Virus record (IMG/VR): IMGVR_UViG_3300010885_053065
Span: 25,720-89,719 of that record
DNA from: a virus
Reading direction: 5' to 3' (one strand)
DNA length: 64,000 nt
Made by a program: the position numbers and the translations under genes. Position 1 is the first letter of the stretch. Each line of letters begins with the position of its first letter. The notes below the pieces were generated by a model. The model made no database searches and was not told the origin of the DNA. It saw nothing but the letters and a program-made list of their open reading frames with translations. Shown here piece after piece: positions 45,254 through 64,000 of the stretch.

Positions 45254-46267
45254 ATGGCAACTTTACAATCATTAGCAGGGTTAGATTTCTATCAGTCTGG
45301 GTTAAATTTATCTGAAGTCAATCAAGTACGCGGCGACTCTATGGAGTTGTGGCTTTCTAAGTTGACTTTTGGTAGTAGCCGACCATCTATCGTCACAGTA
45401 ACAGCGTCAGCCGATGCAGCAACCGATGCAGAAACAATAGCAGCAACAATTTCTACTCCTACCGTACTTTATCGCAGAGATGTTTTATGGTTCTCTGCTG
45501 CAGGAGTACTAGCAGTAGTTAAAGAAACTGTTAACTTAGGCGGTACAGGTACTGGTTTATCTTTAACCGCTGTTTTAGGTACAGGTGGCAATGCTCAAAA
45601 AGTAGTATCAGTCACTATCAACAACGGTGGTAGTGGGTATGTAACGGCACCCACACTTGCTTTTACAGGTGGTGCAGGTTCAGGAGCTACAGCAACTTGT
45701 ACTGTAGTTGATGGTGTGGTTACTTCTGTTACTGTAACAGCACAAGGTTCTGGTTACACAAGCGTGCCTACTGTAGCTATTACTGCGGCAACAAATAACT
45801 CAGTTAAAGTATTACCACTTAGTGGACCTATTACCAGTGGTGGAACAGCTAAGACTTATGGTTTGAAACCACTTATCTCCTTAATGGAAGGTGGTGTTGT
45901 TGACCGTCAAGGACAAGAAATGACCTCTCGTGTTAAGGCTCAGTCTCTGTATGAGGTAAAAGGTATTAACAAAAGAAGTGCAACAATGCCTTTAAACGGG
46001 GTTGTTCTTAAAAACGATCCTGCTCTATTTGATATTGAAGATGTTGTAGGTGGTTCACAATTACTCTATGTTGAATCGCGTCATTCTCCATTTCAAGTGT
46101 TTGATAATGGTGGTACTATCTACGACAAAGGTAGAGGAGTGGGTGCAACAGGAGCTATCGGTACTATTCTTAATTTCCAGTTAACTGCTCCTGAAGCTGA
46201 TTATGTCAAGTTCCAAGCTTCACTATCTATTAGTGGTAGCCCTACCCCATACGCTTTATTAGTTTAG
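45254..46267 (+). CDS. Major tail tube protein with Gly-rich repeat insert
   Basis: 337 residues. It precedes the tail chaperone-size genes and tape measure, the usual tube position. The N- and C-terminal parts (VNQVRGDSMELWLSKLTFGS; SRVKAQSLYEVKGINKRSAT, YVKFQASLSISGSP) form the tube domain. An insert at about 110-185 has two modules (TINNGGSGYVTAPTLAFTGG, TAQGSGYTSVPTVAIT) shared with the decoration protein at 41256. Confidence 0.72.
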   Translation: MATLQSLAGLDFYQSGLNLSEVNQVRGDSMELWLSKLTFGSSRPSIVTVTASADAATDAETIAATISTPTVLYRRDVLWFSAAGVLAVVKETVNLGGTGTGLSLTAVLGTGGNAQKVVSVTINNGGSGYVTAPTLAFTGGAGSGATATCTVVDGVVTSVTVTAQGSGYTSVPTVAITAATNNSVKVLPLSGPITSGGTAKTYGLKPLISLMEGGVVDRQGQEMTSRVKAQSLYEVKGINKRSATMPLNGVVLKNDPALFDIEDVVGGSQLLYVESRHSPFQVFDNGGTIYDKGRGVGATGAIGTILNFQLTAPEADYVKFQASLSISGSPTPYALLV

Positions 46268-46966: not shown

Positions 46967-47412
46967 TCATCATGTTTTTTACTGAGAAATATATTGATTT
47001 TACTTACTGTCTCTGTAATCTTGTCTAGTAGTTCAGCATTGATTGTAAGTTGCTTGACAACAGCTTCCATTCTAGAATCGTAAAGCTTCTGTTCTAGTGG
47101 TTGCTTAAGTAAATAAGATTTCATGTCTGAGTCTAAAGTGTTTAATCTCTTCTCTAAAATCTCAGCTAAAGATGTTAATTTTTCTATACTTTTTTCAAGT
47201 GAACTATATTTTTTGTCTTCTTCATCTCTAAGAATAGTTCTAGCCTGAGATTGTGTTTTAAAAAGAATATTTTGAGCCGCTAAAACTACGATACTGCTAA
47301 TAATAAAAACTAGTAAGGTAGAATCAAATAAACTGGTAATAGGTGAAGATTCTTTAGAATAGTGAGGAATACTATTTATTTCACTATTATTTTTATTATT
47401 TGTAGATGCCAT
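46957..47412 (-). CDS. Membrane-anchored coiled-coil protein
   Basis: 151 residues from ATG 47412. One transmembrane segment (about 28-50: SLFDSTLLVFIISSIVVLAA) and a long coiled coil to the C-terminus (EKSIEKLTSLAEILEKRLNT, QLTINAELLDKITETVSKIN). It is in the opposite orientation to the tail genes; its ATG overlaps the divergent ATG of the DUF2460 gene. A holin accessory or membrane anchor role is possible; unproven. Confidence 0.6.
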   Translation of the reverse strand: MASTNNKNNSEINSIPHYSKESSPITSLFDSTLLVFIISSIVVLAAQNILFKTQSQARTILRDEEDKKYSSLEKSIEKLTSLAEILEKRLNTLDSDMKSYLLKQPLEQKLYDSRMEAVVKQLTINAELLDKITETVSKINIFLSKKHDDYV

Positions 47413-49129
47413 GTTTTTAAATACCCAATTTTTGATAGAAGAAGAGTTCGGAACCAATGTTACTTATGAATTTAGTAACAATAAAAAAGTAGAAATATGC
47501 AACGGAAACGATAGCTTAATAGCTAATTGTTTACAACCTCTTGCTACTTATAGTATAACTAAGTCCTTCTTTTATCAATCAACTTGTGATTACATTACAA
47601 GTTTTTTTACCACAGCATTAGGAAGTCTAAATAGTTTTAGATTTAGAGATCCTTGTGATAATTTTGCCACTAATACAGTTTATAATTCTGGTTTTGGAAC
47701 TAGTACTCAAGGAGTGGTCTTACCCAATCCAGATGGTAGTAATAAAGTATTTAAACTCTATAAAGCTTACAATCTTGGTTCATATGTAGCTTATAGAAAT
47801 ATTAGTAAGCCTATAGTTAGTACTCTTAAAGTTTATGTAAATGGAAATCTGACCACTTGCAGTGTCAATACAAGTACAGGGGTAATTACTTTCTCTACTG
47901 CTCCCCCTGCTGGGAATGGGTTTGGTGGTGTATCTAGGATTACTTGGGAAGGTAATTTTGATGTTGAAGTTAGGTTCGATTCTGATACTGCTGTAGCGAT
48001 AGAAACTAAAGTCTATGACGATAGTATTAGCCAATGGATGTTTCAGCTACCAACACTTAAATTGGTAGAAGTTAGAGATACTAATTCTATTCCTACTGGT
48101 TCTAGTAGGGCACCAGTTACTACGATTCCAGACTCAATAAATCATGTATTTGGCTTAGATTTAAGCTATGACAGCGTTTACCAGTCTCAATACAAAACTC
48201 TTAATACTAAATTAGATAACTTATTTGAGTTACGTACACAACAGTTTAATTATAGTAAAAGTGTTTTTAAGTTAGGAAGTGCTCAACTATTAGATATCAA
48301 TAAAGTAGAATATTTGATCACTTTATGGAGAATCTGTTTAGGCAATGCCAGACTCTTTAAGCTAACTAATCATATTAAAAATATTACTGAATATATTAGA
48401 TTTAATAATACAAGTTTAAGTTTTAATGTTGAGGTTGATTCTTACGTTAGGAGCGAACAATCTTTCTACTTATCTGGGATAGAGTTAATAGGTCCAGGTT
48501 CTTCACCTCCTGCTGTTTGTGTGCCTACACTCACGTTAACAGAGTCGATCTTTAACAATTGGTTAAATGGTAGACTAACTAGTGTTTATGGAGGTTTAGC
48601 TTCAAGCACAGCTACCTGTGAAAAGGTTAGTAGCGGAGGTAACCCAGGTAGCTACCTAAGAATAACAATGGTGACTACAGGTTATAATCAAGGCGGTGTA
48701 AGCACAACACAAGGTATTGCTTATTTCGTTTTTAGTCCTATCTTGTCTTTTGATCCCTCTACACAAGGTTCTATAACTAGTATTGATTTCTCGGTAGATG
48801 TCCAAAACGAGGGATCTTACTCAACTCAACTAACTTTAGCTGTACTTCAAAATGGTATAGTTTACGACTGCTCAGATCGTGGAGCTGTCGCTATTTCTAA
48901 CACTTCATGGACTAATAAGGGTATTAATGGACTAAATTCTGGTTTTGGTGCTGTCTGTACAAATCTAGGTGCATCCATTCCTAGCGGAGCACCAGTGTTT
49001 AACCCTTCTGGTAACCCTATAAGGTTTGGTATTGTAATCAAAAACTATAATATAGCAGCAACGCTTAGTAGAACTTCAGTAGCGTCAATCGATAATCTGC
49101 AAATAGTAGTTAATGCCGATTGTGATTGA
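47411..49129 (+). CDS. DUF2460 tail protein with extended C-terminus (GTA gp12-like)
   Basis: 572 residues. The N-terminal ~220 residues fit DUF2460: YSITKSFFYQSTCDYITSFF, ALGSLNSFRFRDPCDN, PIVSTLKVYVNGNLTTCSVN, TGVITFSTAPPAGN and FDVEVRFDSD. The middle is helical (KTLNTKLDNLFELRTQQFNY) and the C-terminal ~200 residues are a beta-rich, possibly carbohydrate-binding domain. GTA-like tails use this protein as distal tail. The start codon overlaps the divergent ATG at 47410-47412. Confidence 0.78.
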   Translation: MFLNTQFLIEEEFGTNVTYEFSNNKKVEICNGNDSLIANCLQPLATYSITKSFFYQSTCDYITSFFTTALGSLNSFRFRDPCDNFATNTVYNSGFGTSTQGVVLPNPDGSNKVFKLYKAYNLGSYVAYRNISKPIVSTLKVYVNGNLTTCSVNTSTGVITFSTAPPAGNGFGGVSRITWEGNFDVEVRFDSDTAVAIETKVYDDSISQWMFQLPTLKLVEVRDTNSIPTGSSRAPVTTIPDSINHVFGLDLSYDSVYQSQYKTLNTKLDNLFELRTQQFNYSKSVFKLGSAQLLDINKVEYLITLWRICLGNARLFKLTNHIKNITEYIRFNNTSLSFNVEVDSYVRSEQSFYLSGIELIGPGSSPPAVCVPTLTLTESIFNNWLNGRLTSVYGGLASSTATCEKVSSGGNPGSYLRITMVTTGYNQGGVSTTQGIAYFVFSPILSFDPSTQGSITSIDFSVDVQNEGSYSTQLTLAVLQNGIVYDCSDRGAVAISNTSWTNKGINGLNSGFGAVCTNLGASIPSGAPVFNPSGNPIRFGIVIKNYNIAATLSRTSVASIDNLQIVVNADCD

Positions 49130-49449: not shown

Positions 49450-50211
49450 TTATACTCTCTCATACTTATCTAGTACATCTCTAATAATCTCACTTCTAAA
49501 AGAATCTTTTTTAGAGAATTGGATTATGCCAACATTTTTAACTCCTTCTAGGCGTTGCATCGCGTCACTAATGCCGTTAGTAAGGATTGGGACATCGCAC
49601 TGATGAGGATCTCCTGCTAGTACCATTTTTGTATCTTGTCCTGTGGCATCTCTACCACAGCGAGTTAAAAAGGCTTTTATCCCTGCTGGAGGTACGTTTT
49701 GTGATTCATCTAGAATTGCCATACAGTTATTAAAAGTGACGCCTCTACAGTCACTTAAAAGCATGGCTTCTACTGTTCCTTTTTCTATATAATATTTAGC
49801 CTGATGCACTGGCATAAAGACAGACAAATTATCAAGTACAGGTCTAATTAAAGGAGACATTTTCTCTTGTGCGTTACCTGGTAAAGCTCCTATATCACGT
49901 TCCCATTTCATACCGACATTTGGTTTGATATAAATGATTTTTTCGATGCGTCTAAAAGATATTAAGTGAAAGCCATAATATAAAGCAAAAAGCGTCTTGG
50001 CACACCCTGAAGGACCAGACGCTATTGTTATGGTATTATCGTTTAAACTTTTTAAATATTTTGCTTGATTCTCAGATTTAGGGTGTAATTGGAGATATTT
50101 ATTCTGAGTTTCTTGTTTAATTGACTCTTCTGGAATATCTAACGGTTTCTTCTTTCTGTCCTTGTCTTTGCCTCTTTTTTGTGAGGGATAACTGCAAGAT
50201 GCACGAACCAT
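49450..50211 (-). CDS. phoH: PhoH-family ATPase
   Basis: 253 residues from ATG 50211 (AGGGGTG just upstream; GTG 50217 possible). Walker A GPSGCAKT (about residues 66-73), Walker B MAILDESQNVPP, and GDPHQCD sensor, all typical of PhoH. The N-terminal ~45 residues are basic and disordered. PhoH is widespread in marine and cyanobacterial phages; RNA helicase activity has been shown for relatives. It lies between two tail genes on the opposite strand. Confidence 0.92.
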   Translation of the reverse strand: MVRASCSYPSQKRGKDKDRKKKPLDIPEESIKQETQNKYLQLHPKSENQAKYLKSLNDNTITIASGPSGCAKTLFALYYGFHLISFRRIEKIIYIKPNVGMKWERDIGALPGNAQEKMSPLIRPVLDNLSVFMPVHQAKYYIEKGTVEAMLLSDCRGVTFNNCMAILDESQNVPPAGIKAFLTRCGRDATGQDTKMVLAGDPHQCDVPILTNGISDAMQRLEGVKNVGIIQFSKKDSFRSEIIRDVLDKYERV

Positions 50212-50298
50212 AAACACCCCTAGTGTAGTTACTTTTATCTTAACTTTAAAACTATAGTTCAGTTAAGCTAAAGTATAGGTAGACTTGAGGTGTTCTAT

Positions 50299-53200
50299 AT
50301 GGTAAGTGTTGGCTCAGTATCTTTTCAAGTAAAGCTAGATAGAAATAATTTTGATGCAGCGATCAGACAGATGCAGAGAGATTATTCTAATCTGAATATA
50401 AACATTAACCCTGTAGTTAATACGCAGGGAATTAATCAGTTAAATACAGCTTTTAATAACCTGAGACAACAATTAAGTACTCCTTTAAATATAAATGTTT
50501 CAAATGCTCAAGTTAATAGACTTCAATCTGAACTTAACGCTACAAATAATCAGGTTCAGCAACTAGAGCAAGAAGTCTCAAGAGCTAATCAACGTATTCA
50601 ACAATTAGAACAAAACTTAAGAAACTCTGCTCAAGCAACTAATATTTTTAACCAAACTATTAACCAAACTACAAATAATATAAACAGACTAGGTGCTAGT
50701 AGTGGAGAAGTTGTAAGATTATTCCTCTTATTTAAAGCAGGAGAACTGGTAGTTAATGCTTTGGGTATTGCCTTACAGCAACTTCCCTCAAAGATAGCAG
50801 CAACAGTGAGTGAATCAACTAAACTAGCTGCGAGTTTTGAATCACTTAGGATTGCACTCACCTTCTCTGGAATAGATAACGCTGATAGTAAACTGAAGTC
50901 TTTAAGAAAAACTTCTAGTGAGTTAGGTGTCTCCTTTAGTACTTCAGCTAGAGCCTATCAACAATTAGCAGCGGCGTCTAGAGGTACTAATTTAGAGGGA
51001 CAAACAGACAAGATTATCAGTGGTGTTCAGGTAGGTTTGGCAGGTGCAGGTGCAGGAAAACAGCAACAAGAAAAATCCTTTTTAGCTATTGCTCAGATAG
51101 CTTCTAAAGGTAGGGTTTCCATGGAGGAACTAAATCAGCAGTTAGGTGAAGCTTTACCAGGAGCCTTACAAGTAGCTGCTAGGTCTATGGGTAAAACAGT
51201 ACCTGAATTTATTAAGTTAATTGAAACGGGACAAGTTTTAGCTGAAGACTTGTTACCCAAACTAGCTGCTCAATTTAAGTTAGAAGGTGCTGCAGGTATA
51301 GATAAGGTTGCGGATACAGCTAATACCAAACTGATCAAGTTACAAAATACAGTTGAAGAGTTAAAGGTGAGTACGGGAGAAGGGTTTTTAATTGGACTAA
51401 AACCCGTACTTACTGTAGTGACTGCAGGTATGGAGTTACTGAATAAAGCGTCTGGTGCAGTAAATATCGCTTTAGGGATTCTAGCAACTGGTGGGATAAT
51501 TTTTGTTGTTAACGGAATACGAATACTAGTCTCAGCCTTGGCTACAGGGGGCTTGGCTTCTACTGTATTTGGTCAAACATTAGGTTTACTAGGAATCCAA
51601 AGTGCAACTGTTACAGGATTACTAGGCAACGCATCTATAGCTCTAAAATCCTTTGGTGCATCTTTATTAGTAGCGGCTCCTATTGTTTTAGGGATAGTTG
51701 CAGCCTTTGCTATATGGAATGCTGGATCTAAAGATTTAGCTGAATCTGTTGACGCTCTTTCTAAATCTCTCGAAAGACTAAAAGCTAGTAGAGATAAGTT
51801 AGATCCAAATAAACCACTAACAGAACAGAAGAACTTTACAGGAGACGTTTTTAAAGATTTATCAACTGGTGGGTTACCAGTTCCAAAAACAATACAAGAA
51901 AGATTGAAACAAACAGCAGAAACAGGAAGAGGTTTACCTCTTGGTAATCCTTTCCAGTTGTATAACGACTATGCTGTTTCTAAAGATGTTGGCAATATAA
52001 AAAAAGTTATTGATTTAGCCAAAAAGCAAAATGACGAACTCAATAAGACCTTTAATAATGCTGAGAAAATAGATTCTATCAAAGGGAAAATAACCAAAAT
52101 TGATAACGATATTCGAGGTTATAAAACAGATCAAGGGATTGCTCAATCTAAAGGAGACACTAAGAGCGTATTATCTTTAAATAAGAAAATTACAGAAGCG
52201 CAAGCGCAAAGAGAAAATATTATTGGTGAATCTTTTGGTAGTTCAGCAGCAGAATTACAGCAAAGAAACGAGATTCTAGAAAAAACCAAAAAAGAGTTAG
52301 AGAATAATAAACCAAATATCTCTACTTCTGACTACAAAACTGAACTTAATACAATTAATACCCTAATAGAAGATGGTAAGAAAAAACTAGAAGCCTACAA
52401 CTCTACTGTTGCAGGGATCAATAACGAGTTTAAGGATATGGAGTACAATCTCTCTAAAATAACAGGAAGATTGGCTGATATTCAATTTAAATATGAACGG
52501 ACATTGCAATTACAAACAACACAACTAGATAACGAACGTGCTGCACAAATTGAAGCAGCTAGAAATAACTTAAAAAATACAGGTATTAATACTCTTAACG
52601 ATTCAAGTTATCAATCAAAATCTCTAGACATTCAAATCAAAGCTGCTAGACAACTACTAAGTGAACTACAGAGTGAGCAGTCAAGCCGATTAGAAACGCT
52701 TTTAGATAAGTACACAAATAATCAACAGAAGTTTGCTAGAAATGATGATCAGAATCTTAACAAGATATTTGGTACTAAAAACTTTGCTGAAGATGTTAAA
52801 TCTGGTAATATTTCTGCTGAAACGATACAGAAAATAGTTACTGATTCTGAGAAGACCACAGGAAAAGTATTAGATCCAATAATCCAGAAAATAGCAGAAG
52901 TAGCACAAGAGTATATAAAGAATCAAACTAAGATTAATGCGACTCAAGGACAGATAGCTAATCAAGGTAGACAGAAATCAGAACAAGCTCTCCAGTTAGA
53001 CATAAATAGAAATAACTTAGTACAGCAAGTTAGAGACTTTAGTAGACAAATTGAAGACTATTTTATTCAGATAGGTGAACAGAATAAGCAGTGGCTACGT
53101 AGTTTAGAGGATGTTGCTCTAACTTATAAAAGAGAAGTTAGGAGTATAGTTGAGAGTTATCAAGACCTAAATAGAGAACTAGACCTTAAGATAGCAACTC

Positions 53201-55632
53201 TTAGAAAGAACTTAGAGGATGCTAAGGCTCAATTAGCTAATACTAAGTTATCTAACTCTCTTAATGAAGGTCTAACTCCTGGTGTAGATAGTATCAACAG
53301 TAGAGTAGCTAAAATCTTCACTGACTACAACGCTAAGTTACAAGAGATTGACGCTAAGAAAAGTCAATTTAACTTAGGACAGTTAACAGAACAGCAACAG
53401 ATGATCGCCTTAGCTCGTTCTATCAGAACTCAACAGGAACAGCAATTAGACTTTGAGAAAAAGAGATTAAGGCAGTCTGAGGACTTGGTTACTCAACAGC
53501 AACAATATAGTAGAAGTCAGTCTAAATCGTGGCAAGATTTACTCTTAAAAGCCAAAGATATCTCAGAACAGGCTTCTAAATTAGGTTTGAATCTTGGGAC
53601 AATTAGCCAAAGAATAGCAGCAGAAGGCAATAAGCTAATAGAGTCTTTTAGAGGTATTGTTAACGGCTTAGGAGGAATTAATAAAAATGTTCCTCAAATA
53701 AACCCTGCTTCTGGTTTTAAACCACAGAATAATATAGTTCCTCTTAAAGAACCTCAAGCTCCTAAGTACACATCAATTAAGGATATTCGAGACACCGAAG
53801 AGTATAAGAAAGGTAAAGAGGTAACACGTACTGTTGACGTTTCTAAAGGGTTTAGTATTGACATAGGATTAGGAAATAAACCTAAACCAGTCGTTAAGCC
53901 AGTTGTCAAGCCTACAATAACTTCTGATTTTCTAGGTGGCTTAGCTGATAAGTTTCCTATTAGACCTAAGACAGATGAAGAGTTATATGGCTTAGATTAT
54001 CTACGTTCCTTGACTCCTATAGTTAGTCAACCTAGTAATGGAGCCATACCACAGTTAGCTAATACTCCAAAATTTGATAATCAGAAGCTTATTAAGAAAG
54101 CAGGTCAAATTCAATCACTTGGTGGGGAACTTAGGGATGTTGGAAGTCAGCAGATAGATGAAGATAGAATTAGCGCGGTAAGAGCGGCTGCGGCTCAGAT
54201 AAATATTGAATTAAGGAATATTCAGTCTGGTATAGAAAAGACAAGGTATAGCCTTTCCCAATCTTCTATAGAGTCTGACAAGTTCTTGCAGAGTACTAGA
54301 GGCTATACGACTGAAGCAGAGAGACAAAAGAATATTGTTAATGAAATTAATCAGGCTGAAGACCAAAGATTACAATCTTTAATCGACCAAAAAAGAGTTT
54401 ATCAAGATCAGGCTGATGGTGGGGTAATTCTACTCAAAGGATTACAGGATAAGCAAAAAGAATATCAGGAACAAGGAAAAGCGTTACCTGAAAACTTTGA
54501 AAAACTATTAGAAGCAGCTAAAGCAGCAATACCAGTCTACGAACAAGGTGCTGAAGCCATACAGAAACAGATAGATAAAGTAAAAGAAGAGACTGCTGCT
54601 GTAAAAGAATTGAGGATAGCCAGAGAACGTGAGATTGGTGCTAGAGAAAAACAGAACAGTCTAGATAGCTATCAGAAGAACTATCTAGAAGCTAAAGCTG
54701 GCTCAAGTTCTAACCCTTTTGAAGCTAACGACTTTAAGCGACAAGCTTTAACACTACAACAAAGAGTTGACTACAGAAATGAGCAATCCAATCTGGAAGA
54801 CTTTATTCTTAAACAGAACCTATCAAGGACTGAAGCTGAAAACTTGAGAGATAAACTCAAAGAGATAAACGAGATTAAGTTGGCTGATATAACAAAACAG
54901 ACTGATTTCCTCTATCAATCTTTATCTGCTCCTCTAGATAATCTATTTAAGGGATTAACTAGTTTTTCTGGTAGTATTCAAGACTTACTTGCTAATTTTG
55001 TTAACTCAATAGTTGGTAGTATTACCTCTGCACTAAGTAAACTTGCTTCTGATTCACTACTCAAGTCTCTCCTTGGTCTAGGAGGTGGTGGCGGAGGAAT
55101 TGCTGACTTATTTGGTGGTGGTATCGGTGGAGGTGCCGCTGCTGATTTACTAGGAGGCTTAGGGTTATTTACCTTTGCTAATGGTGGCACTGTTCCTACA
55201 GCAGCTAATGGTTTAAGTGTAGGTTCAGCTTATAGTATGGGTTCTTCAGTTCTTAAAGCAATGCAGACTGAAGGTATGGGAGCTATACCTATAGTTGCTC
55301 ACTCTGGCGAAGAAGTATTAACAGATAGAAATGGTGATGCTCAATTCTTTAGAGAATTATCTAAAACAGGTAAATGGCAATCTCTTAAACAGAATAAAGG
55401 TCTATCTGTTGGCAACTTTGATGCAGGTGGTATTGTTGGAGGAAACAATTCCTTTGGTGGCTCCTTTGCTAACAACGGGTTTACAAAAAACAATCAACCT
55501 ACTTTTGTCACCAATAATCACAGCACCAATATTAAGGTCAGTGCTCAGGATGCTAACAGCTTTAGAAAGTCTCAAGCTCAGATAGCTAGAGAACAGCAAC
55601 TAGAACAAGAAAGACAATCTAGATTTACTTAA
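50299..55632 (+). CDS. Tail tape measure protein
   Basis: About 1777 residues from ATG 50299 (TTGAGGTG site 7 bp upstream). Regions: an N-terminal coiled coil (about 70-110), the tape-measure N-domain (SSELGVSFSTSARAYQQLAA, QLGEALPGALQVAARSMGKT), hydrophobic segments (about 385-475), long coiled coils (530-1620), and a Gly-rich C-terminal stretch (about 1590-1640). It sets tail length; by the usual 0.15 nm per residue the tail would be near 250-270 nm, an estimate only. Confidence 0.9.
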   Translation: MVSVGSVSFQVKLDRNNFDAAIRQMQRDYSNLNININPVVNTQGINQLNTAFNNLRQQLSTPLNINVSNAQVNRLQSELNATNNQVQQLEQEVSRANQRIQQLEQNLRNSAQATNIFNQTINQTTNNINRLGASSGEVVRLFLLFKAGELVVNALGIALQQLPSKIAATVSESTKLAASFESLRIALTFSGIDNADSKLKSLRKTSSELGVSFSTSARAYQQLAAASRGTNLEGQTDKIISGVQVGLAGAGAGKQQQEKSFLAIAQIASKGRVSMEELNQQLGEALPGALQVAARSMGKTVPEFIKLIETGQVLAEDLLPKLAAQFKLEGAAGIDKVADTANTKLIKLQNTVEELKVSTGEGFLIGLKPVLTVVTAGMELLNKASGAVNIALGILATGGIIFVVNGIRILVSALATGGLASTVFGQTLGLLGIQSATVTGLLGNASIALKSFGASLLVAAPIVLGIVAAFAIWNAGSKDLAESVDALSKSLERLKASRDKLDPNKPLTEQKNFTGDVFKDLSTGGLPVPKTIQERLKQTAETGRGLPLGNPFQLYNDYAVSKDVGNIKKVIDLAKKQNDELNKTFNNAEKIDSIKGKITKIDNDIRGYKTDQGIAQSKGDTKSVLSLNKKITEAQAQRENIIGESFGSSAAELQQRNEILEKTKKELENNKPNISTSDYKTELNTINTLIEDGKKKLEAYNSTVAGINNEFKDMEYNLSKITGRLADIQFKYERTLQLQTTQLDNERAAQIEAARNNLKNTGINTLNDSSYQSKSLDIQIKAARQLLSELQSEQSSRLETLLDKYTNNQQKFARNDDQNLNKIFGTKNFAEDVKSGNISAETIQKIVTDSEKTTGKVLDPIIQKIAEVAQEYIKNQTKINATQGQIANQGRQKSEQALQLDINRNNLVQQVRDFSRQIEDYFIQIGEQNKQWLRSLEDVALTYKREVRSIVESYQDLNRELDLKIATLRKNLEDAKAQLANTKLSNSLNEGLTPGVDSINSRVAKIFTDYNAKLQEIDAKKSQFNLGQLTEQQQMIALARSIRTQQEQQLDFEKKRLRQSEDLVTQQQQYSRSQSKSWQDLLLKAKDISEQASKLGLNLGTISQRIAAEGNKLIESFRGIVNGLGGINKNVPQINPASGFKPQNNIVPLKEPQAPKYTSIKDIRDTEEYKKGKEVTRTVDVSKGFSIDIGLGNKPKPVVKPVVKPTITSDFLGGLADKFPIRPKTDEELYGLDYLRSLTPIVSQPSNGAIPQLANTPKFDNQKLIKKAGQIQSLGGELRDVGSQQIDEDRISAVRAAAAQINIELRNIQSGIEKTRYSLSQSSIESDKFLQSTRGYTTEAERQKNIVNEINQAEDQRLQSLIDQKRVYQDQADGGVILLKGLQDKQKEYQEQGKALPENFEKLLEAAKAAIPVYEQGAEAIQKQIDKVKEETAAVKELRIAREREIGAREKQNSLDSYQKNYLEAKAGSSSNPFEANDFKRQALTLQQRVDYRNEQSNLEDFILKQNLSRTEAENLRDKLKEINEIKLADITKQTDFLYQSLSAPLDNLFKGLTSFSGSIQDLLANFVNSIVGSITSALSKLASDSLLKSLLGLGGGGGGIADLFGGGIGGGAAADLLGGLGLFTFANGGTVPTAANGLSVGSAYSMGSSVLKAMQTEGMGAIPIVAHSGEEVLTDRNGDAQFFRELSKTGKWQSLKQNKGLSVGNFDAGGIVGGNNSFGGSFANNGFTKNNQPTFVTNNHSTNIKVSAQDANSFRKSQAQIAREQQLEQERQSRFT

Positions 55633-55784: not shown

Positions 55785-56666
55785 TTAAGTTGTCCTAATC
55801 GCTATTCCATTAGTAAGATAAGTGTAAACTTCTGAGGCTGATACTGTTAGTAAATCACTATAGGTAAAGCCATGGATGATACCCGAAGTTGGTACATTGC
55901 AACCGATAAAATCAGAGCTTAATCCTCCTATAGCAAAACTACCTGTTCTTAAGTTAACAGGTTTAATTAGTTGATAATTAAAATCTAGATCTAAATTGGG
56001 AGGTGTCCACACGGAAGTACCTGAAACCCCATGCACATAGGTCTGCAAGTTACTAGAGGTAGTAGAAGATCCGTAAGCGTTAGTTGTACCATAACTGTTA
56101 AAGGTATTTAAGTTAGTAGTATAAAGTAAGTGTACAGACGGTCCAAAAGTTTCAGGATTACTAACGTAATTGTTTACTGTTTTCGCAAAACCAAACAACA
56201 ATCTAAATAAATTATTAGGATTAGTTAGAACTATTAGACTATAGCTACCTTCATTGTCGTTATAGGTTGTGACATTATGAAAAGCGTTGGCTCCAAAACA
56301 ATCGCCACCAGTAACAAGGTAAGTCTGTGTGCTCAAAGAACCTGTCCCTGCAAAGGTTCCTGTATTCCAAGTGTTAAACAAGTTAAAAGATATGGATGCA
56401 TTAGAAACGTTATTAGATGCGCTTATATTGTTTCTATTTCCTACGTACACTGGAACAAAAATAGTAATAACCAGAAAAACAGTACTAAAAGTTCCACTAT
56501 TATTGCTTAGCTGATAGACAAGAAAAGTGTTATTCCCGCTATTTGCTACTTGAGTAGGAGTGGGAAAACCAGCATTTGACAAGATAGTTTGCAAAGCAGT
56601 AGAGATTGCTGAGTTTCCAGAATATAGCTGTAAGCCGTTTGGATAATTTCTTACTATAGCCGTCAC
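55785..56666 (-). CDS. Receptor-binding-like paralogue 3 (293 residues)
   Basis: One of three tandem paralogues. Shared features: N-terminal ALQTILSNAGFPTPTQVANS, a LVYQLSNNSGTFSTVFLVIT strand, the SLIVLTNPNNLFRLLFGFAK segment and a C-terminal motif ending EVYTYLTNGIAIRTT. The middle is variable. The position next to the giant fibre indicates tail fibre or adhesin proteins. It abuts the next gene by one base overlap. Confidence 0.65.
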   Translation of the reverse strand: MTAIVRNYPNGLQLYSGNSAISTALQTILSNAGFPTPTQVANSGNNTFLVYQLSNNSGTFSTVFLVITIFVPVYVGNRNNISASNNVSNASISFNLFNTWNTGTFAGTGSLSTQTYLVTGGDCFGANAFHNVTTYNDNEGSYSLIVLTNPNNLFRLLFGFAKTVNNYVSNPETFGPSVHLLYTTNLNTFNSYGTTNAYGSSTTSSNLQTYVHGVSGTSVWTPPNLDLDFNYQLIKPVNLRTGSFAIGGLSSDFIGCNVPTSGIIHGFTYSDLLTVSASEVYTYLTNGIAIRTT

Positions 56667-57556
56667 TAGGTAGTCCTCACTGCTAATCCATCACCAACAT
56701 AAGTATAAATTTCATTACTAGATGCGACAAACGTATCACCATAATTAAACCAACTAAAAGGTCTTGGTGTTGGTCCGTTGGTAGTTGTCAACATAACAAA
56801 ATCACTACTTAAAAACCCTGTATTGTATCCTGTATTGTGGGTTACTCCAAAGTTGTGAATCCTGTTATTCGTCCCGTACCTTAGACAAGCAGGTTTAATT
56901 ATCTGGTAAATGCCGTTACTATCTATTGGAGCGATAGAAGGGAAATACCCCACACTACCATAATTACAGCTATTAGCAATAGTTCTAGCTGTAGAGGCGG
57001 TAACTAGTAATACATAAGGATAGGATACGTTTGATTGGATATAACACAAGCCATGTATTGTTGGTGCTATATCTCTCTGGTTTGGAACGGCTGTAATTAA
57101 AGTGTCAAGGAAGCCAAGCACAAACCTAACGTTATTACCTGCATCAGTCAGGACAGTAAAGCCGTAAGAGTTGTCGGTAACATTTGTGTAAGACTTTGCT
57201 GATAAGAAAGCTGAAGTTCCAAGTAGATTTAGAGGATTGCATTGAATAACTGGACCATTGTTAGTACCCGTTAGAGTTCCTGTATCCCATGTTTCAAACA
57301 ACATTAAAGAGGGTTGGTTAGCGAAAGCTGTCCAAGTTGAGGTAGTTGTACTCCATGTCAGCACCCAAAAAACAGTATTATAAGTACCAACGCTCCTAGA
57401 CAATTGATAAACCAGATAATAATAACCACCTGATATAGTCGCTTGAAGAGGACTAGGGAAGCCACAACCAGCTAAAGCAGTTTGGATTCCCGTATTAAAA
57501 GAGGCTGGACTAGAGCCTTGAATTAAATCAGTATAAGTAGTAACTGTAGCCGTCAT
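56666..57556 (-). CDS. Receptor-binding-like paralogue 2 (296 residues)
   Basis: Same architecture: IQTALAGCGFPSPLQATISG, LVYQLSRSVGTYNTVFWVLT, YGFTVLTDAGNNVRFVLGFL and the end NEIYTYVGDGLAVRTT. The central receptor-facing region differs from the paralogues. The start overlaps the upstream paralogue by 4 bp (ATGA type). Confidence 0.65.
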   Translation of the reverse strand: MTATVTTYTDLIQGSSPASFNTGIQTALAGCGFPSPLQATISGGYYYLVYQLSRSVGTYNTVFWVLTWSTTTSTWTAFANQPSLMLFETWDTGTLTGTNNGPVIQCNPLNLLGTSAFLSAKSYTNVTDNSYGFTVLTDAGNNVRFVLGFLDTLITAVPNQRDIAPTIHGLCYIQSNVSYPYVLLVTASTARTIANSCNYGSVGYFPSIAPIDSNGIYQIIKPACLRYGTNNRIHNFGVTHNTGYNTGFLSSDFVMLTTTNGPTPRPFSWFNYGDTFVASSNEIYTYVGDGLAVRTT

Positions 57557-58356
57557 GTGGTACGCACTCCTATTCCTGTTTGTAGATAGGTATAGATCTC
57601 ACTACCACTAACGGTCATAGTATCAGCGAACAGATAACTTGTAGGACAACCTACTAGGTCTGAGTGTAGAGGTCCAACAGAGAAACCTGCAGTAACCGAA
57701 CTACCTGCCCCAACACGTAAAACAACAGGTCTAACTAACTGTACCCGTCCGTTTACATCTGTAGCACTTACACATAGGTTTCCTAAAAAAGAAAACCCAT
57801 TTGTAGCTCCTGCTGAGACAGTTGGACCAATAGAACAGAGTCCAGTATTTGTAGTTGAGAACATAATACCATGCACTGACGGTGCAATGCTTTCTGCCTG
57901 TGGAGGAAAGTTAGATACAGTTTTAGCAAACCCTAATATAAATCTCATAACGCTAGAACCACTGGTAACCACGACAAAACCGTACATTCCTGTATCGTTT
58001 TCTCTGTAAGCAACGGTGGAAAAAGAACCACTAGTAATTACGTTTAATGCTGTACCACTAGTTAAAGCCGTATTTCCCCCTGTTCCTGAGAAAGTGCCTG
58101 TATTCCATGTTTGAAATACGTTTAGCGTTAAGGTCGCACTACTTGTGTTTGGAAAAGTCAGGACCCAATAAATTGTAGCGTTAGCACCGCTATTGTTACT
58201 TAGAGCATAGACTATATAATAAGTTCCACTGTTTAGTACTGCTTGAAAAGGACTAGGGAATCCAGCATCAGCTAAAGCTGTCTGTATCCCTGTAAAGAAT
58301 GAAGCGGCACTAGAGTTTGTAATGGAAGATGCACGAGTAGTTACGGTTGCCACCAT
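57553..58356 (-). CDS. Receptor-binding-like paralogue 1 (267 residues)
   Basis: Same architecture: IQTALADAGFPSPFQAVLNS, IVYALSNNSGANATIYWVLT, MYGFVVVTSGSSVMRFILGF and the end SEIYTYLQTGIGVRTT. First of the three in transcription order, 4 bp after the giant fibre stop. Confidence 0.65.
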   Translation of the reverse strand: MVATVTTRASSITNSSAASFFTGIQTALADAGFPSPFQAVLNSGTYYIVYALSNNSGANATIYWVLTFPNTSSATLTLNVFQTWNTGTFSGTGGNTALTSGTALNVITSGSFSTVAYRENDTGMYGFVVVTSGSSVMRFILGFAKTVSNFPPQAESIAPSVHGIMFSTTNTGLCSIGPTVSAGATNGFSFLGNLCVSATDVNGRVQLVRPVVLRVGAGSSVTAGFSVGPLHSDLVGCPTSYLFADTMTVSGSEIYTYLQTGIGVRTT

Positions 58357-58360
58357 ATAA

Positions 58361-61300
58361 TTAAGCCTGTATTTGTATATAAGTAATAGTTAATGTGATT
58401 GTGCCAGTTGATCCATTATTCACGATAGTTAAAGGGAAAACGTTACTAATACTTGTCTCAAAATTAGCAGCTACAGCTAGAGGCGAGAAAGTAAAAGAAG
58501 TACCGGATATATCAAATATTATACCGGAACCAGGATCTGGGGCTGTTGTAATTAATCTCGCTGCATCTGATGCTCTACTAGCAGTAGAACTATAGAACCT
58601 GATCCAGCTATTTACACTAGCTACTACACGCAAAATAATACACGTAGTAGACAGTGTAATCGTTGTGTTCAGTGTTGCTCCTGCATTTATAGAGGCAGTC
58701 GTAATTGTAGCCGTTTGTCTTGAGTTGTTAATTGTTACTGATGCAGTTATACCAGTAAGTTGACTTCCATCTACTGCGGGTAATCTACTACTAGAATCCA
58801 ACTGAACTATGTTATTAGCACTTGTACCTACATTTAAAGTAGAAGCAGTACCTAAACCAGTAACTTGAGTATTGGCAATAGAGAGAGTATTTAAGTTGGA
58901 AATTTGAGAGAGTGTGATACTAGAAGCTGTAGCCAAACTTCCTAAACCCAATAGAGTGCTTAATTGAGCAGATGTTAAAGCTACAGGACTGGCACTACTA
59001 CCAGAAACATTGCCTAACACCGTATTGTTAGCAATACTAGCTATATTGCTTAAACCTACAGTAGAAAGAGTAGCTAGACTTCCCAAGCCAGTAACTTGAG
59101 TGTTGGCTATCGAAAGAGTATTTAGATTTGAGATTTGGGAAAGCGTAATACTTGAGGCTGTAGCTAGTGAACCTAGTCCACTAACTTGAGTATTACTTAT
59201 ATTGGTAAGTTGACTTGCATTTACAGCAGGTAGCCTACTGCTAGAATCTAACTGAACTAGATTATTAGCACTTGTGCCTACATTTAGAGTAGAAGCAGTA
59301 CCTAAACCAGTAACCTGAGTATTAGCAATAGAGAGACTATTTAAATTAGAAATTTGAGATAACGTAACACTTGAGGATGTAGCTAGACTTCCCAAACCAG
59401 TAACTTGAGTATTGGCTATCGAAAGAGTATTTAAATTAGAGATTTGGGAAAGTGTGATACTTGAAGCTGTAGCCAGACTTCCTAATCCCAATAGAGTACT
59501 TAATTGAGCAGAGGTTAAGGCTACAGGACTGGCACTACTACCAGAAACGTTACCTAAAATAGTATTATTAGCAATACTAGCTATATTACTTAAACCTACA
59601 GTAGAAAGAGTAGCTAGACTTCCTAATCCACTAACTTGAGTATTAGCAATAGAGAGACTATTTAAATCAGAAATTTGAGATAACGTAATACTTGAGGCTG
59701 TAGCTAGACTTCCCAAACCAGTAACTTGAGTATTGGCTATCGAAAGAGTATTTAGATTTGAGATTTGAGAGAGAGTGATATTTGAAGCCGTGGCAAGTGA
59801 ACCTAATCCACTAATTTGAGTATTACTTATATTAGTAAGCTGACTCGCATTTACTGCTGGTAGCCTACTGCTAGAATCTAGCTGAACTATATTATTAGCA
59901 CTTGTGCCTACGTTTAAAGTAGAAGCAGTACCTAATCCAGTAACTTGAGTATTAGCAATTGAAAGAGTATTTAGATTCGATATTTGGGAAAGCGTAATAT
60001 TTGAAGCTGTAGCCAGACTTCCCAAACCTAATAAAGTACTTAATTGAGCAGAGGTTAAAGCTATAGGTGTAGCTGTGTTGCCAGAAATATTGCCTAAAAC
60101 CGTATTATTTGCAACTTGTGGTAGAGATTCTAATCCACTAATCTGAGATGCAGAAATATTGGTAAGTTGACTTGCATTTACTGCAGGTAGCCTACCACTA
60201 GAGTCTAACTGAACTATATTATTGGCACTTGTTCCTACATTTAGAGTAGATGCAGTACCTAAACCAGTAACTTGAGTATTAGCAATAGAAAGAGTATTTA
60301 GATTAGAGATTTGGGAAAGCGTAACACTTGAGGCTGTAGCAAGTGAGCCTAATCCCAATAAATTATTTAATTGAACAACTGTAATAGCAACAGGACTAGC
60401 ACTATTACCAGAAACGTTACCTAGAATAGTATTGTTGGCAATACTAGCTATATTGCTTAAACCTACAGTAGAAAGAGTAGCTAAGCTTCCCAATCCAGTA
60501 ACTTGAGTGTTGGCTATCGAAAGAGTATTTAGATTAGAGATTTGAGAGAGAGTGATATTTGAAGCCGTGGCAAGTGAACCTAGTCCACTAACTTGAGTAT
60601 TACTTATATTAGTAAGTTGACTTGCATTTACTGCAGGCAGTCTACCGTTAGAATCTAACTGAACTATATTATTAGCACTTGTTCCTACATTTAAAGTAGA
60701 AGCAGTACCTAATCCACTAACCTGAGTACTGCTGATCGAAAGGGTATTTAAGTTGCTTATTTGGGAAAGCGTAATATTTGAAGCCGTGGCAAGTGAACCT
60801 AATCCCAATAAACTACTTAATTGAGCAGAGGTTAAAGCTATGGGTATAGCACTATTACCAGAAACGTTACCTAAAACTGTATTGTTTGCGACTTGTGGGA
60901 GAGATTCTAATCCACTAATTTGAGATGCTGAAATATTAGTAAGCTGACTTGCATTTACAGCAGGCAGTCTACCGTTAGAATCTAACTGAACTATATTATT
61001 AGCACTTGTGCCTACGTTTAAAGTAGAAGCAGTACCCAATCCAGTAACTTGAGTATTGGCAATAGAAAGGGTATTTAGATTAGAGATTTGGGAAAGCGTA
61101 ATACTTGAGGCTGTAGCAAGTGAGCCTAATCCAGTAACTTGAGTATTAGCAATTGAAAGAGTATTTAGGTTGGAGATTTGAGAGAGTGTAACACTAGAAG
61201 CTGTGGCTAGTGCGCCTAATCCACTAATTTGACTACTGCTTAAGTTAGTAAGCTGACTTGCGTTTACTGCTGGCAACCTACTATTAGAGTCTAACTGAAC

Positions 61301-64000
61301 TAAATTACTAGCCCCTATACCAGCATTTAGAGTGGATGCAGTACCTAAACCAGTAACCTGAGTATTAGCAATTGAAAGACTATTTAGGTTGGAGATTTGA
61401 GAGAGAACAATACTTGAGGCTGTAGCCAGACTTCCTAATCCACTAATTTGACTACTACTTAAGTTAGTAAGCTGACTTGCATTTACAGCAGGTAACCTAC
61501 CACTAGAGTCTAACTGAACTAAATTACTAGCGCCAGTACCCACGTTGAAAGTAGAAGCAGTACCCAATCCAGTAATTTGAGTATTAGCAATTGAGAGGGT
61601 ATTTAGGTTACTTATCTGGGAAAGAGTAACATTTGAAACCGTAGCTAGTGAGCCTAATCCATTAATTTGAGTATTACTTATATTGGTAAGCTGACTTCCG
61701 TCTACTGCTGGCAACCTACCACTAGAATCAAGTTGAACTACGTTATTAGGACTAACGCCCACGTTTAAAGTAGCAGCAGTACCTAAACCAGTAACTTGAG
61801 TATTTGCAATTAAAAGAGAAGATAAGTTAGAGATTTGAGCTAAAGTAATACTTCCTACAAGTGGCGGAATAACGGTAGAGCCACTATTGTAGTCATCATT
61901 ATCAATAATAGTTATAGTCGCTTGTTCTCTACCAATCCTAGCTCCAACTATATTAGTTAAGCGAACGGTAAAAGATTCTGTTGGCTCAGGGATATTGTCA
62001 CCAACAATTGGTATTTGTACTGTTAAACTTGTTTGACCTGCATAGATTGTAAACCTATCGGTAACAGGAACATAGTCAATATAAGGTCTAGCTGTAAGAC
62101 TACTTGCTATTAAATTAAAGGAGATATTTGAGGGAGCAGCAGCACTCAATCCAACCTCAAAAGAAAGGTTAGTGTTACCTGCAGATCCTTCTGTTACTGT
62201 AGCCTCCGATACTGAAATAAGAGGCGTTTGATCGTTATCGACAATAACGCAATCACCACGACTACTAAGTCCTAGAGTTGCATTAACTGGGTTAGACAAC
62301 ACCAAAGAGAAGGTTTTATTCTCTTCTAAAACTGTATTAGAAATGATTGGAACATTGACAACCTGACTCAGTTGAGAAGGTTGAAATGTTAGCGTTCCTG
62401 CTGTAGTTATAAAATCAATCTCAGCAGATGCCGTTCCTCCAACAGTTTGATAATCAACTGATACAGTGTCAACTGAAGCACTAGAAAGAGTAACCGTAAA
62501 AGGAGCAACAACTGATCCTGTGTCTCCCTCTGTAACTACCACACTATTTATAGACAAAGTAGGTAAAACAGTAGGAGGAGGAGTTGTGTTTAATATCGAC
62601 CCAGTGCCTCTAACCCTACTAATTACAGAATTAGTAGGAGATGATAAGTCTAAATAAAAGTCTCTAGTTGGAGCATAACTAGGGTTAGCAAGCACAGTTA
62701 TTGAGACGTTTTGTGATACCTGATTTGGATTAAAGGTAACTATACCTGAACCGCCTGTATAATCCCGTCCAGTTAAAGCTGTGTTATTTACGGTTGTATA
62801 TTGAACTGTGACTGTATCTTGAGATGCACTACTCAAAGTGACAACAAAATTCATATTGACCGAATTAGTAGTGCTAACGGTTACAGTAGGCGAACTAATA
62901 CTTATTGACGGAATACTTCCAGTTTCATTGAGTGCAGCAAGTAGAGCGTTATATCGTGGTGAACTTGTCTGACCAACATTCTCTAGTACTCCCCATGAGC
63001 CGTATTTGTCAGGTGTTCTTGTACTGAGGTAGTTATTATATAAACCAGTAGGGACTAGTTCAAACCAATCATTTAAATGTCGTGCATAAAGATCTCCCAT
63101 TCTCTGATCTCTATGAGCATTGATAAATAGGTTAGTTATTCCTGTATCGTTTTGAGTTGGTATATCAATACCTGATACGTGAGACTGTCCTTCATAAGCA
63201 AGTAGTTTTACACTATATTGATCAGCTTTGGCTTTATTGGCAACAATCCAACCTCTAGACTGTACAAGTGCACCGCCTTGTGGTCCATTAGGTAATATAC
63301 CCCCTGTAGATAATTCTGCAATTATCTTACCTATCCCTCCGTCGCTATCGCTAAACCAACTTCTAATGGTTGATGCGTAAGTGGGAGAACCTAGATAAAA
63401 CCCAAAATACGGAGCTATTGCTAAGCTCTTGATACCTCTATTATTAGGTGTTCTAGTTTGTCTGTCCCATGCACAGGCTAAAGCTCTATTTGCTGTGTAA
63501 TCGTTAGCTGCTTGGGTAGCCATAACCACATCTACTCTATTAGTCTGTCCAACAAACACACTATTCCAAATATCTGCTATTTGGCAAGTACGCATAGAGA
63601 AGAAGTCTGTACCCTTGTCGGTATCGGTTGCTGTATAGTTTGGATAGTTGTTAGCTTGGGTAAAGATTGCTTTCCCCTGCTGAATCATATATCTATTTTG
63701 TCCAGTAAAGCCAGGGTTCCAATACTCGTTAGAGTACTCAACGTAAGCTGTTAAACCAGACTCTAGATTATTCCTGACGTAAGTAGCAAACTGAGTAATA
63801 TAGTCGTTAGTGGCTAAGTGTGGCATACAGAACCACGCATCAGCATCTAACTTATTACACAAAGCAACCATCATCTCAATTGGTGCTTTGTCCCAAGCAG
63901 AGTCAGTTAGCTTTTGTCGATCACTCCAATTAACTTGGGTAGAGTTATTAGTTCTCATCCAGTCCATAAATCGCAAACACTTAAAGCCAGTCCATTGCGA
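58361..64000 (-). CDS. Giant tail fibre: glycosidase-like domain, Calx-beta domains and fibre repeats (5' end beyond window)
   Basis: At least 1879 codons; the frame is still open at the window edge (TTG 63976 is not the real start). N-terminal ~340 residues resemble a TIM-barrel glycosidase (AYVEYSNEYWNPGF, with the NE acid/base motif). Then three Calx-beta-like domains (about 355-690), e.g. VTEGDTGSVVAPFTVTLSSA. Then a long repeat region with nine VQLDSxxRLPAVNASQLT units and many SQISNLNTLSIANTQVTGLG units, and a short beta C-terminus. It probably is the side fibre that degrades and binds host polysaccharide. Confidence 0.82.
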   Translation of the reverse strand, partial: SQWTGFKCLRFMDWMRTNNSTQVNWSDRQKLTDSAWDKAPIEMMVALCNKLDADAWFCMPHLATNDYITQFATYVRNNLESGLTAYVEYSNEYWNPGFTGQNRYMIQQGKAIFTQANNYPNYTATDTDKGTDFFSMRTCQIADIWNSVFVGQTNRVDVVMATQAANDYTANRALACAWDRQTRTPNNRGIKSLAIAPYFGFYLGSPTYASTIRSWFSDSDGGIGKIIAELSTGGILPNGPQGGALVQSRGWIVANKAKADQYSVKLLAYEGQSHVSGIDIPTQNDTGITNLFINAHRDQRMGDLYARHLNDWFELVPTGLYNNYLSTRTPDKYGSWGVLENVGQTSSPRYNALLAALNETGSIPSISISSPTVTVSTTNSVNMNFVVTLSSASQDTVTVQYTTVNNTALTGRDYTGGSGIVTFNPNQVSQNVSITVLANPSYAPTRDFYLDLSSPTNSVISRVRGTGSILNTTPPPTVLPTLSINSVVVTEGDTGSVVAPFTVTLSSASVDTVSVDYQTVGGTASAEIDFITTAGTLTFQPSQLSQVVNVPIISNTVLEENKTFSLVLSNPVNATLGLSSRGDCVIVDNDQTPLISVSEATVTEGSAGNTNLSFEVGLSAAAPSNISFNLIASSLTARPYIDYVPVTDRFTIYAGQTSLTVQIPIVGDNIPEPTESFTVRLTNIVGARIGREQATITIIDNDDYNSGSTVIPPLVGSITLAQISNLSSLLIANTQVTGLGTAATLNVGVSPNNVVQLDSSGRLPAVDGSQLTNISNTQINGLGSLATVSNVTLSQISNLNTLSIANTQITGLGTASTFNVGTGASNLVQLDSSGRLPAVNASQLTNLSSSQISGLGSLATASSIVLSQISNLNSLSIANTQVTGLGTASTLNAGIGASNLVQLDSNSRLPAVNASQLTNLSSSQISGLGALATASSVTLSQISNLNTLSIANTQVTGLGSLATASSITLSQISNLNTLSIANTQVTGLGTASTLNVGTSANNIVQLDSNGRLPAVNASQLTNISASQISGLESLPQVANNTVLGNVSGNSAIPIALTSAQLSSLLGLGSLATASNITLSQISNLNTLSISSTQVSGLGTASTLNVGTSANNIVQLDSNGRLPAVNASQLTNISNTQVSGLGSLATASNITLSQISNLNTLSIANTQVTGLGSLATLSTVGLSNIASIANNTILGNVSGNSASPVAITVVQLNNLLGLGSLATASSVTLSQISNLNTLSIANTQVTGLGTASTLNVGTSANNIVQLDSSGRLPAVNASQLTNISASQISGLESLPQVANNTVLGNISGNTATPIALTSAQLSTLLGLGSLATASNITLSQISNLNTLSIANTQVTGLGTASTLNVGTSANNIVQLDSSSRLPAVNASQLTNISNTQISGLGSLATASNITLSQISNLNTLSIANTQVTGLGSLATASSITLSQISDLNSLSIANTQVSGLGSLATLSTVGLSNIASIANNTILGNVSGSSASPVALTSAQLSTLLGLGSLATASSITLSQISNLNTLSIANTQVTGLGSLATSSSVTLSQISNLNSLSIANTQVTGLGTASTLNVGTSANNLVQLDSSSRLPAVNASQLTNISNTQVSGLGSLATASSITLSQISNLNTLSIANTQVTGLGSLATLSTVGLSNIASIANNTVLGNVSGSSASPVALTSAQLSTLLGLGSLATASSITLSQISNLNTLSIANTQVTGLGTASTLNVGTSANNIVQLDSSSRLPAVDGSQLTGITASVTINNSRQTATITTASINAGATLNTTITLSTTCIILRVVASVNSWIRFYSSTASRASDAARLITTAPDPGSGIIFDISGTSFTFSPLAVAANFETSISNVFPLTIVNNGSTGTITLTITYIQIQA

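Follow-up and report, generated by a model that had tools for sequence, protein, structure and literature searches.

We propose that a giant gene at the end of a viral record encodes a cyanophage tail fibre carrying a clan GH-A-type hydrolase that would cut host exopolysaccharide with Glu253 and Glu431 as its catalytic residues, and we give this reading a probability of about 0.68. The DNA that we analysed, referred to here as the window, is a stretch of 64,000 nucleotides corresponding to positions 25,720-89,719 of an 89,719-base record, that is its last 64,000 bases. In the proposed arrangement, the N-terminal ~520 residues of the protein would be a retaining glycoside hydrolase of clan GH-A type, and three Ig-like Calx-beta domains would join this enzyme to a long repeat stalk with a small tip domain. 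By hydrolysing host exopolysaccharide or sheath, the enzyme would clear a way to the cell envelope, and the stalk and tip would keep the enzyme on the virion, bind the surface, or both.

The gene continues across the ends of the record

In the window the gene appeared as an open frame on the minus strand (58361-64000) whose 5' end runs off the window edge, and the earlier note had proposed retrieval of this missing end. We found it across a 123-base direct repeat: the first 123 bases of the record are the same as its last 123 (window copy 63878-64000). Because these two ends are identical, the record closes on itself, and the phage genome is therefore probably complete. The end repeat likewise places the missing part of the gene at record positions 124-606 on the minus strand, which makes the gene complete at 2,040 codons with an ATG at record position 606. 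An in-frame stop lies upstream, separated from this ATG by 15 codons, and at that short distance no sizeable N-terminal domain can have been missed. Upstream of the fibre start, in the gap after the preceding gene (record positions 606-790), we noted by eye a hairpin followed by a T-rich run, perhaps a terminator. The protein begins with a glycosidase-like domain (aa ~5-521), which is followed by three Calx-beta domains, by 20 repeat units encoded in a 3.1-kb tract, and by a tip of 129 residues.

Since the record ends fall inside the gene, we considered whether enzyme and fibre come from different genomes and were joined in an assembly chimera. At third codon positions the enzyme part has more G+C (0.280) than the remaining three segments of the gene (0.183-0.233), as such a chimera might show. 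However, total G+C is alike over the same four segments (0.373-0.385), the 123-base end overlap is exact with the frame continuing through it, and the transition from enzyme to stalk lies within the contig. Residues 162-202 of the fibre overlap the record ends, and single alignment rows to bacterial proteins cross this junction, namely query residues 2-523 on a protein designated L015 and 4-867 on a second, L019, in which Calx-beta likewise follows the enzyme. The join across the record ends is believable because these single rows traverse it, and we regard a chimera as very improbable.

The N-terminal domain has a predicted clan GH-A fold and both catalytic glutamates

The earlier note had likened the N-terminal domain to clan-A glycosidases on account of an EYSNEYWN motif. 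The motif is present at aa 249-256. The part of the domain lying in the window comprises barrel strands 2-8 (aa 162-521; 62921-64000, minus strand), as delimited by alignment and models; aa 1-161, holding strand 1 and a beta-strand-rich insert, were read across the end repeat and lie outside the window at record positions 124-606, also on the minus strand. We modelled a homologue, L011, that is 46% identical to the window part of the enzyme domain. Its model (pLDDT 96.6, pTM 0.94) has eight barrel strands, at residues 6-10, 171-173, 219-224, 250-254, 314-319, 349-352, 422-425 and 473-478, with the beta-strand-rich insert between strands 1 and 2, Asn256-Glu257 after strand 4 and Glu427 after strand 7. 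The best structural match was the GH51 structure 2y2w (Z 24.6, rmsd 3.1, 303 aligned residues), followed by the bacterial heparanase 5bwi (Z 23.4), which we take to be a GH79 enzyme, and GH39 2bfg (Z 22.3). The window's own part of the domain, for which strand 1 lies outside the window, was modelled together with the Calx-beta domains and gave a pLDDT of 79.0 and a pTM of 0.58. Confidence is lower over the Calx-beta part of this model; within its residues 1-360, block means are at least 90 in 24 of 36 blocks, strand 4 corresponds to residues 85-89, and the structural matches again include 5bwi (Z 20.9) and 2y2w (Z 20.8).

The predicted catalytic positions are conserved throughout the family. 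Glu253 is a glutamate in 99 of 99 aligned rows and the preceding Asn252 an asparagine in 98; this pair lies at 63725-63730 (minus strand), at the end of strand 4. Glu431, in the motif LLAYEGQ at the end of strand 7 (63191-63193, minus strand), is kept in 98 of the 99 rows, the 99th being cut short. Surrounding motif positions are nearly invariant across the 99 rows, phage copy included; the count was made without the L019 frame and seven viral frames with E values above 1e-10 (L101-L107). A glutamate after strand 4 (99/99) and another after strand 7 (98/99) constitute the clan GH-A pattern. In clan GH-A the strand-4 glutamate is the acid/base and the strand-7 glutamate the nucleophile. By analogy with this clan, Glu253 is the predicted acid/base and Glu431 the predicted nucleophile. 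Loss of catalytic residues in the modelled barrel, which the earlier note had named as the result that would overturn its reading, was looked for and both glutamates were found retained, which supports its clan-A comparison. As far as models can establish it, the first domain is a clan GH-A-type barrel that is well supported at both the fold and the residue level. The domain is presumably catalytically active.

The likeness to the retaining hydrolases of clan GH-A (GH51, GH39, GH5, heparanase) thus consists of the eight-stranded barrel, the Asn-Glu pair of strand 4 and the glutamate of strand 7. In the listed structural alignments, identity to clan GH-A structures is 8-15%, and PDB contains no significant sequence relative (best E 0.63). 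The fibre enzyme differs from the clan in its insert between strands 1 and 2 and in matching no Pfam glycoside hydrolase family. We found no curated family over the enzyme domain in Pfam, NCBIfam or PHROGs. When 58 aligned enzyme domains were compared with Pfam, 18 families appeared at E values up to 1 (best 0.002), none of them a glycoside hydrolase; NCBIfam searched with five proteins returned no family for the domain, and a defence library returned nothing. Sequence searches of PDB gave four chance matches with the profile (E 0.63 and above) and one (E 1.3) with L006, a viral relative described below, alone. Three queries with the enzyme domain against 50,697 phage records gave no match at E 0.01, and for this reason no isolated phage among them shows the domain in a fibre.

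A barrel of this kind might instead have become a catalytically dead, lectin-like receptor-binding module. In the material examined we found no family member with activity, and a structure search of viral models returned a tail protein of Escherichia phage Goslar whose fold is weakly similar and for which no activity is stated. We nevertheless consider a dead barrel quite unlikely, because both glutamates and the motif around them are nearly invariant with the phage copy included, and because sugar or polysaccharide genes adjoin some of the relatives, as set out below.

Relatives of the enzyme are widespread in bacteria

A scan of prokaryote genomes confirmed at least 548 relatives of the enzyme domain, of which the loci of the best 80 were retained for later work. 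A profile of the domain matched 20 of the 386 cyanobacterial genomes searched and, in the phylum of Dokdonella, 13 of 398; in a first tree, 59 of the 94 rows were cyanobacterial. We scanned ten longer bacterial relatives for further domains, and eight carried domains of a known type: RTX in three, cadherin-type in three (two of these also with laminin-G), H-lectin in one and PA14 in one, with none recognised in the remaining two. The enzyme domain is thus related to bacterial proteins of secreted or surface type.

Gene neighbours of the relatives were collected from loci of at least 7,500 bases, using one flanking frame of 150-899 aa per side; four frames that were the enzyme itself were removed, and at two loci (L053 and L067) the second neighbour was used in place of the immediate one. 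Of the resulting 117 flanking proteins, and among the matches listed (25 of 113 matching families), ten proteins matched sugar epimerase/GDP-mannose dehydratase, nine GT2, five GT1 and two sulfotransferase families, these being raw counts. The substrate of the fibre enzyme would presumably be a polysaccharide. PslG of Pseudomonas aeruginosa (5bx9) shares the fold of the window model with a Z score of 15.6; it is a glycosidase of an exopolysaccharide cluster and degrades the polymer made there. PslG differs from the fibre enzyme in being a cellular enzyme, and it lies outside the PDB sequence matches of the fibre enzyme.

Relatives of the enzyme, some of them weak, are present at 22 viral loci in IMG/VR. 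One of these, L006, is a free-standing version of 514 residues whose N-terminal start lies at much the same position. Ten proteins neighbouring the viral relatives were compared with known families; one matched tail families (at L099), one a helicase loader (at L088) and eight gave no match.

The enzyme-Calx-beta module has a cyanobacterial counterpart

The Calx-beta domains of the fibre (aa ~525-876; 61856-62911, minus strand), which the earlier note had named, matched Pfam PF03160 well above its gathering score, with 134.9 bits against 27 (E 1.7e-39) in three stretches. They also appear as strands of the window model and are collinear with a cyanobacterial protein: residues 4-867 of the fibre align in one row with L019 (33% identity, E 4e-130), a protein of Cyanobacteria bacterium RI_101 in which the same enzyme family is joined to Calx-beta. 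Judged by sequence comparison, the enzyme-Calx-beta module is of bacterial type, its order being common to the cyanobacterial protein. L015 is a further cyanobacterial protein in which this enzyme family is joined to Calx-beta, and neither L015 nor L019 matches the stalk or tip of the fibre. The phage protein also differs from L019 in plan, since the latter, a frame of 1,645 residues (L019:107-5041), has two enzyme copies alternating with Calx-beta domains.

We calculated a quick tree (94 rows) and a careful tree (65 rows) of the enzyme domain. The rows of seven loci (L089, L092, L093, L095 and L097-L099) were left out of the quick tree and two L019 domains were added; near-identical rows and other viral rows were also left out of the careful tree. 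In both, the phage domain fell just outside the cyanobacterial clade, and in the careful tree it sat on a long branch. Nesting of the phage domain with one cyanobacterial subclade was not rejected (p-AU 0.14), in a comparison for which the group was named after the tree had been seen. Recent capture from a sampled cyanobacterial lineage was considered and set aside as a statement of fact, the domain being outside the clade and on a long branch.

The stalk repeats look mostly old

The repeat tract occupies 58751-61852 on the minus strand (aa 878-1911), in agreement with the extent of about 58750-61850 given in the earlier note. It is built of 20 units of three types: nine are long (54-76 aa), six have 30 aa, and five, of 44-47 aa, carry the motif ANNT[IV]LGN. 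Tandem Repeats Finder reported overlapping arrays from 59304 to 61853. Ten distinct 50-mers are exactly repeated in the tract, whereas the longest exact repeat in 20 codon shuffles was 16 bases, which shows that the repeats did not arise by chance.

The earlier note had also called the tract prone to recombination that would change fibre length, and this suggestion was weakened. In its favour are the ten repeated 50-mers and the closest unit pairs, which are 89-97% identical in DNA depending on unit type. Against it, the tract holds no exact repeat of 60 bases, and the codons are largely scrambled. Among eight of the long units, average identity is 87% for protein and 83% for DNA. Where units share an amino acid, they use the same codon 61-66% of the time across four unit sets (eight of the nine long units, the six short units, 15 shared 22-residue pieces and the five ANNT units), compared with the 47-54% that codon usage predicts. 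From their codons, the stalk repeats thus look to be mostly old copies that selection on the protein has kept alike. Frequent recent shuffling of repeats was set aside, since synonymous codons are largely scrambled despite some pairs with 92-97% DNA identity. Recombination between exact stretches of 40-59 bases could still occur, and a change in fibre length is possible though not indicated.

The stalk also scored above the Pfam cut-off for the leucine-rich-repeat family LRR_EndoS (PF23952; 38.9 bits against 27.9, in three stretches), which may reflect a regular spacing of Leu and Asn. A weak match to LRR_4 was seen as well, and the short unit has some resemblance to such a repeat. The C-terminal segment defined by the frame (aa 1912-2040 and stop codon; 58361-58750, minus strand) had no relative confirmed in IMG/VR in a pattern-based search that finds close relatives only; our guess for its role is a tip or a trimerisation element.

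The genome points to a cyanobacterial host

The capsid protein of the phage (MCP) matched 7 of 292 cyanobacterial genomes (best E 6.6e-45) and 2 of 299 genomes in the phylum of Dokdonella (best E 1.3e-9). Nineteen phage records matched it, and coverage reached at least 80% only in two records of Synechococcus phage S-CBS4, where identity was 28.6% over 98%; weaker matches were to Erwinia, Listeria, Pectobacterium, Vibrio and Pantoea phages. One cyanobacterial genome (G188) contains two contigs (L117-L119) on which portal, capsid and adjacent genes follow an order similar to that of this phage, and one of the two also has a tape measure gene. From these sequence matches a cyanobacterial host is likely. 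A pattern-based search of IMG/VR, which finds close relatives only, gave no relative of the capsid protein, a megablast comparison of 24 kb of the phage with phage records gave nothing, and no tRNAs were found.

An integrase-family gene is present at 29560-30651 (phrog_1, E 1e-12), and the phage may therefore be temperate. A transposase-family gene (837-2027; phrog_506, E 1.1e-135) also lies inside the phage genome.

The fibre gene lies beside the tail genes

Motifs of the stalk matched four phage records over 12-23% of the query, and two of these are annotated as tail fiber protein. The motifs are shared with the tail fibres of Puniceispirillum phage HMO-2011 (NC_021864) and Pelagibacter phage HTVC309P at 77.8-80.0% identity over 19-23% of the query; neither matches the enzyme domain, which had no match in any phage record at E 0.01. 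We place the fibre beside the tail module because the tape measure protein gene (50290-55632, plus strand; Pfam TMP_3, E 1.5e-21) adjoins on the opposite strand. The motifs common to annotated tail fibres, together with the nearby tape measure gene, argue for the giant fibre that the earlier note had described, and the protein is presumably carried on the virion.

Between fibre and tape measure gene lie three tandem paralogues (55785-58356) that overlap or nearly do so and share the minus strand of the fibre. The first, directly downstream of the fibre, spans 57553-58356; the second (56666-57556) and third (55785-56666) are 42% and 40% identical to it. All three are probable phage tail genes. 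The first had no match in phage records and no relative in a pattern-based IMG/VR search that finds close relatives only. Distant kin of the paralogues occur near tyrosine-recombinase-like genes, the recombinase being read from sequence, in 2 of 292 cyanobacterial genomes. Elsewhere in the window, two proteins (41256-42230 and 45254-46267) have stretches matching many virion and baseplate PHROGs, and these stretches probably represent a shared surface domain. A 572-residue protein (47411-49129) matches a glycoside hydrolase PHROG over residues 27-227 (E 1.7e-32) and is possibly a second carbohydrate-cutting enzyme. A PhoH-like gene (49450-50217; phrog_170, E 1.1e-60) and the tape measure gene lie on opposite strands.

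The protein might also act off the virion as an adhesin-like glycosidase, set free when the cell lyses or presented by a lysogen on its surface. An enzyme that begins at residue ~5 without an anchor would suit such a role, several relatives are of secreted or surface type (RTX- and cadherin-bearing), the integrase-family gene suggests a temperate phage, and the stalk also matches a leucine-rich-repeat family. We judge this role unlikely, however, because the stalk motifs match annotated tail fibre proteins, the gene adjoins the tape measure gene and lies upstream of three likely phage genes, and Pfam found no RTX match in the window part of the protein.

Discussion

Phage capsule depolymerases and tailspikes presumably share a role with the proposed tail fibre, that of a polysaccharide-degrading domain on a long virion protein. 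They are usually beta-helices, whereas the fibre enzyme is predicted to be a TIM barrel and stands at the N-terminus. For Klebsiella phage depolymerases, a review describes a plan in which the tether comes first and the enzyme, usually a beta-helix, follows in the middle (PMC11652154). The earlier note had called the N-terminal placement unusual, and we agree: the enzyme starts at residue ~5, where depolymerases normally carry the virion tether (PMC11652154). The N-terminal virion-tethering domain that precedes the enzyme in depolymerases and tailspikes is absent here, and a recognised virion-anchor domain was found at neither end of the fibre. In the DepoScope survey of phage proteins, TIM barrels made up 10 of 984 hits to polysaccharide-degrading folds (PMC11326577); TIM-barrel depolymerases are rare but known already. 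Our literature searches found no paper joining phage, Calx-beta and tail fiber, and none joining phage tail fiber, TIM barrel and glycosidase.

Two mountings of the fibre on the virion can be envisaged. The stalk or the C-terminus may hold the fibre so that the enzyme faces outward, or the enzyme may lie near the baseplate with an unrecognised surface doing the mounting. A bolder version of the first arrangement, which we hold only tentatively and think rather doubtful, is an inverted fibre, anchored by the C-terminal part or stalk, in which a glycosidase-Calx-beta module was taken whole from a bacterial surface protein that processes exopolysaccharide, and its N-terminus points outward at the far tip. 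If true, the anchoring at the N-terminus that is usual in tail fibres and tailspikes would be reversed, with an enzyme family not found in the curated libraries searched.

Many cyanobacteria wear thick sheaths. A phage glycosidase whose bacterial kin sometimes lie beside sugar or polysaccharide genes would be an assayable tool for passing them. The fibre domain also gives a foothold in a widespread enzyme family for which we found no Pfam model. Finally, the enzyme occupies the usual site of the virion anchor, which bears on whether fibres can mount the other way round.
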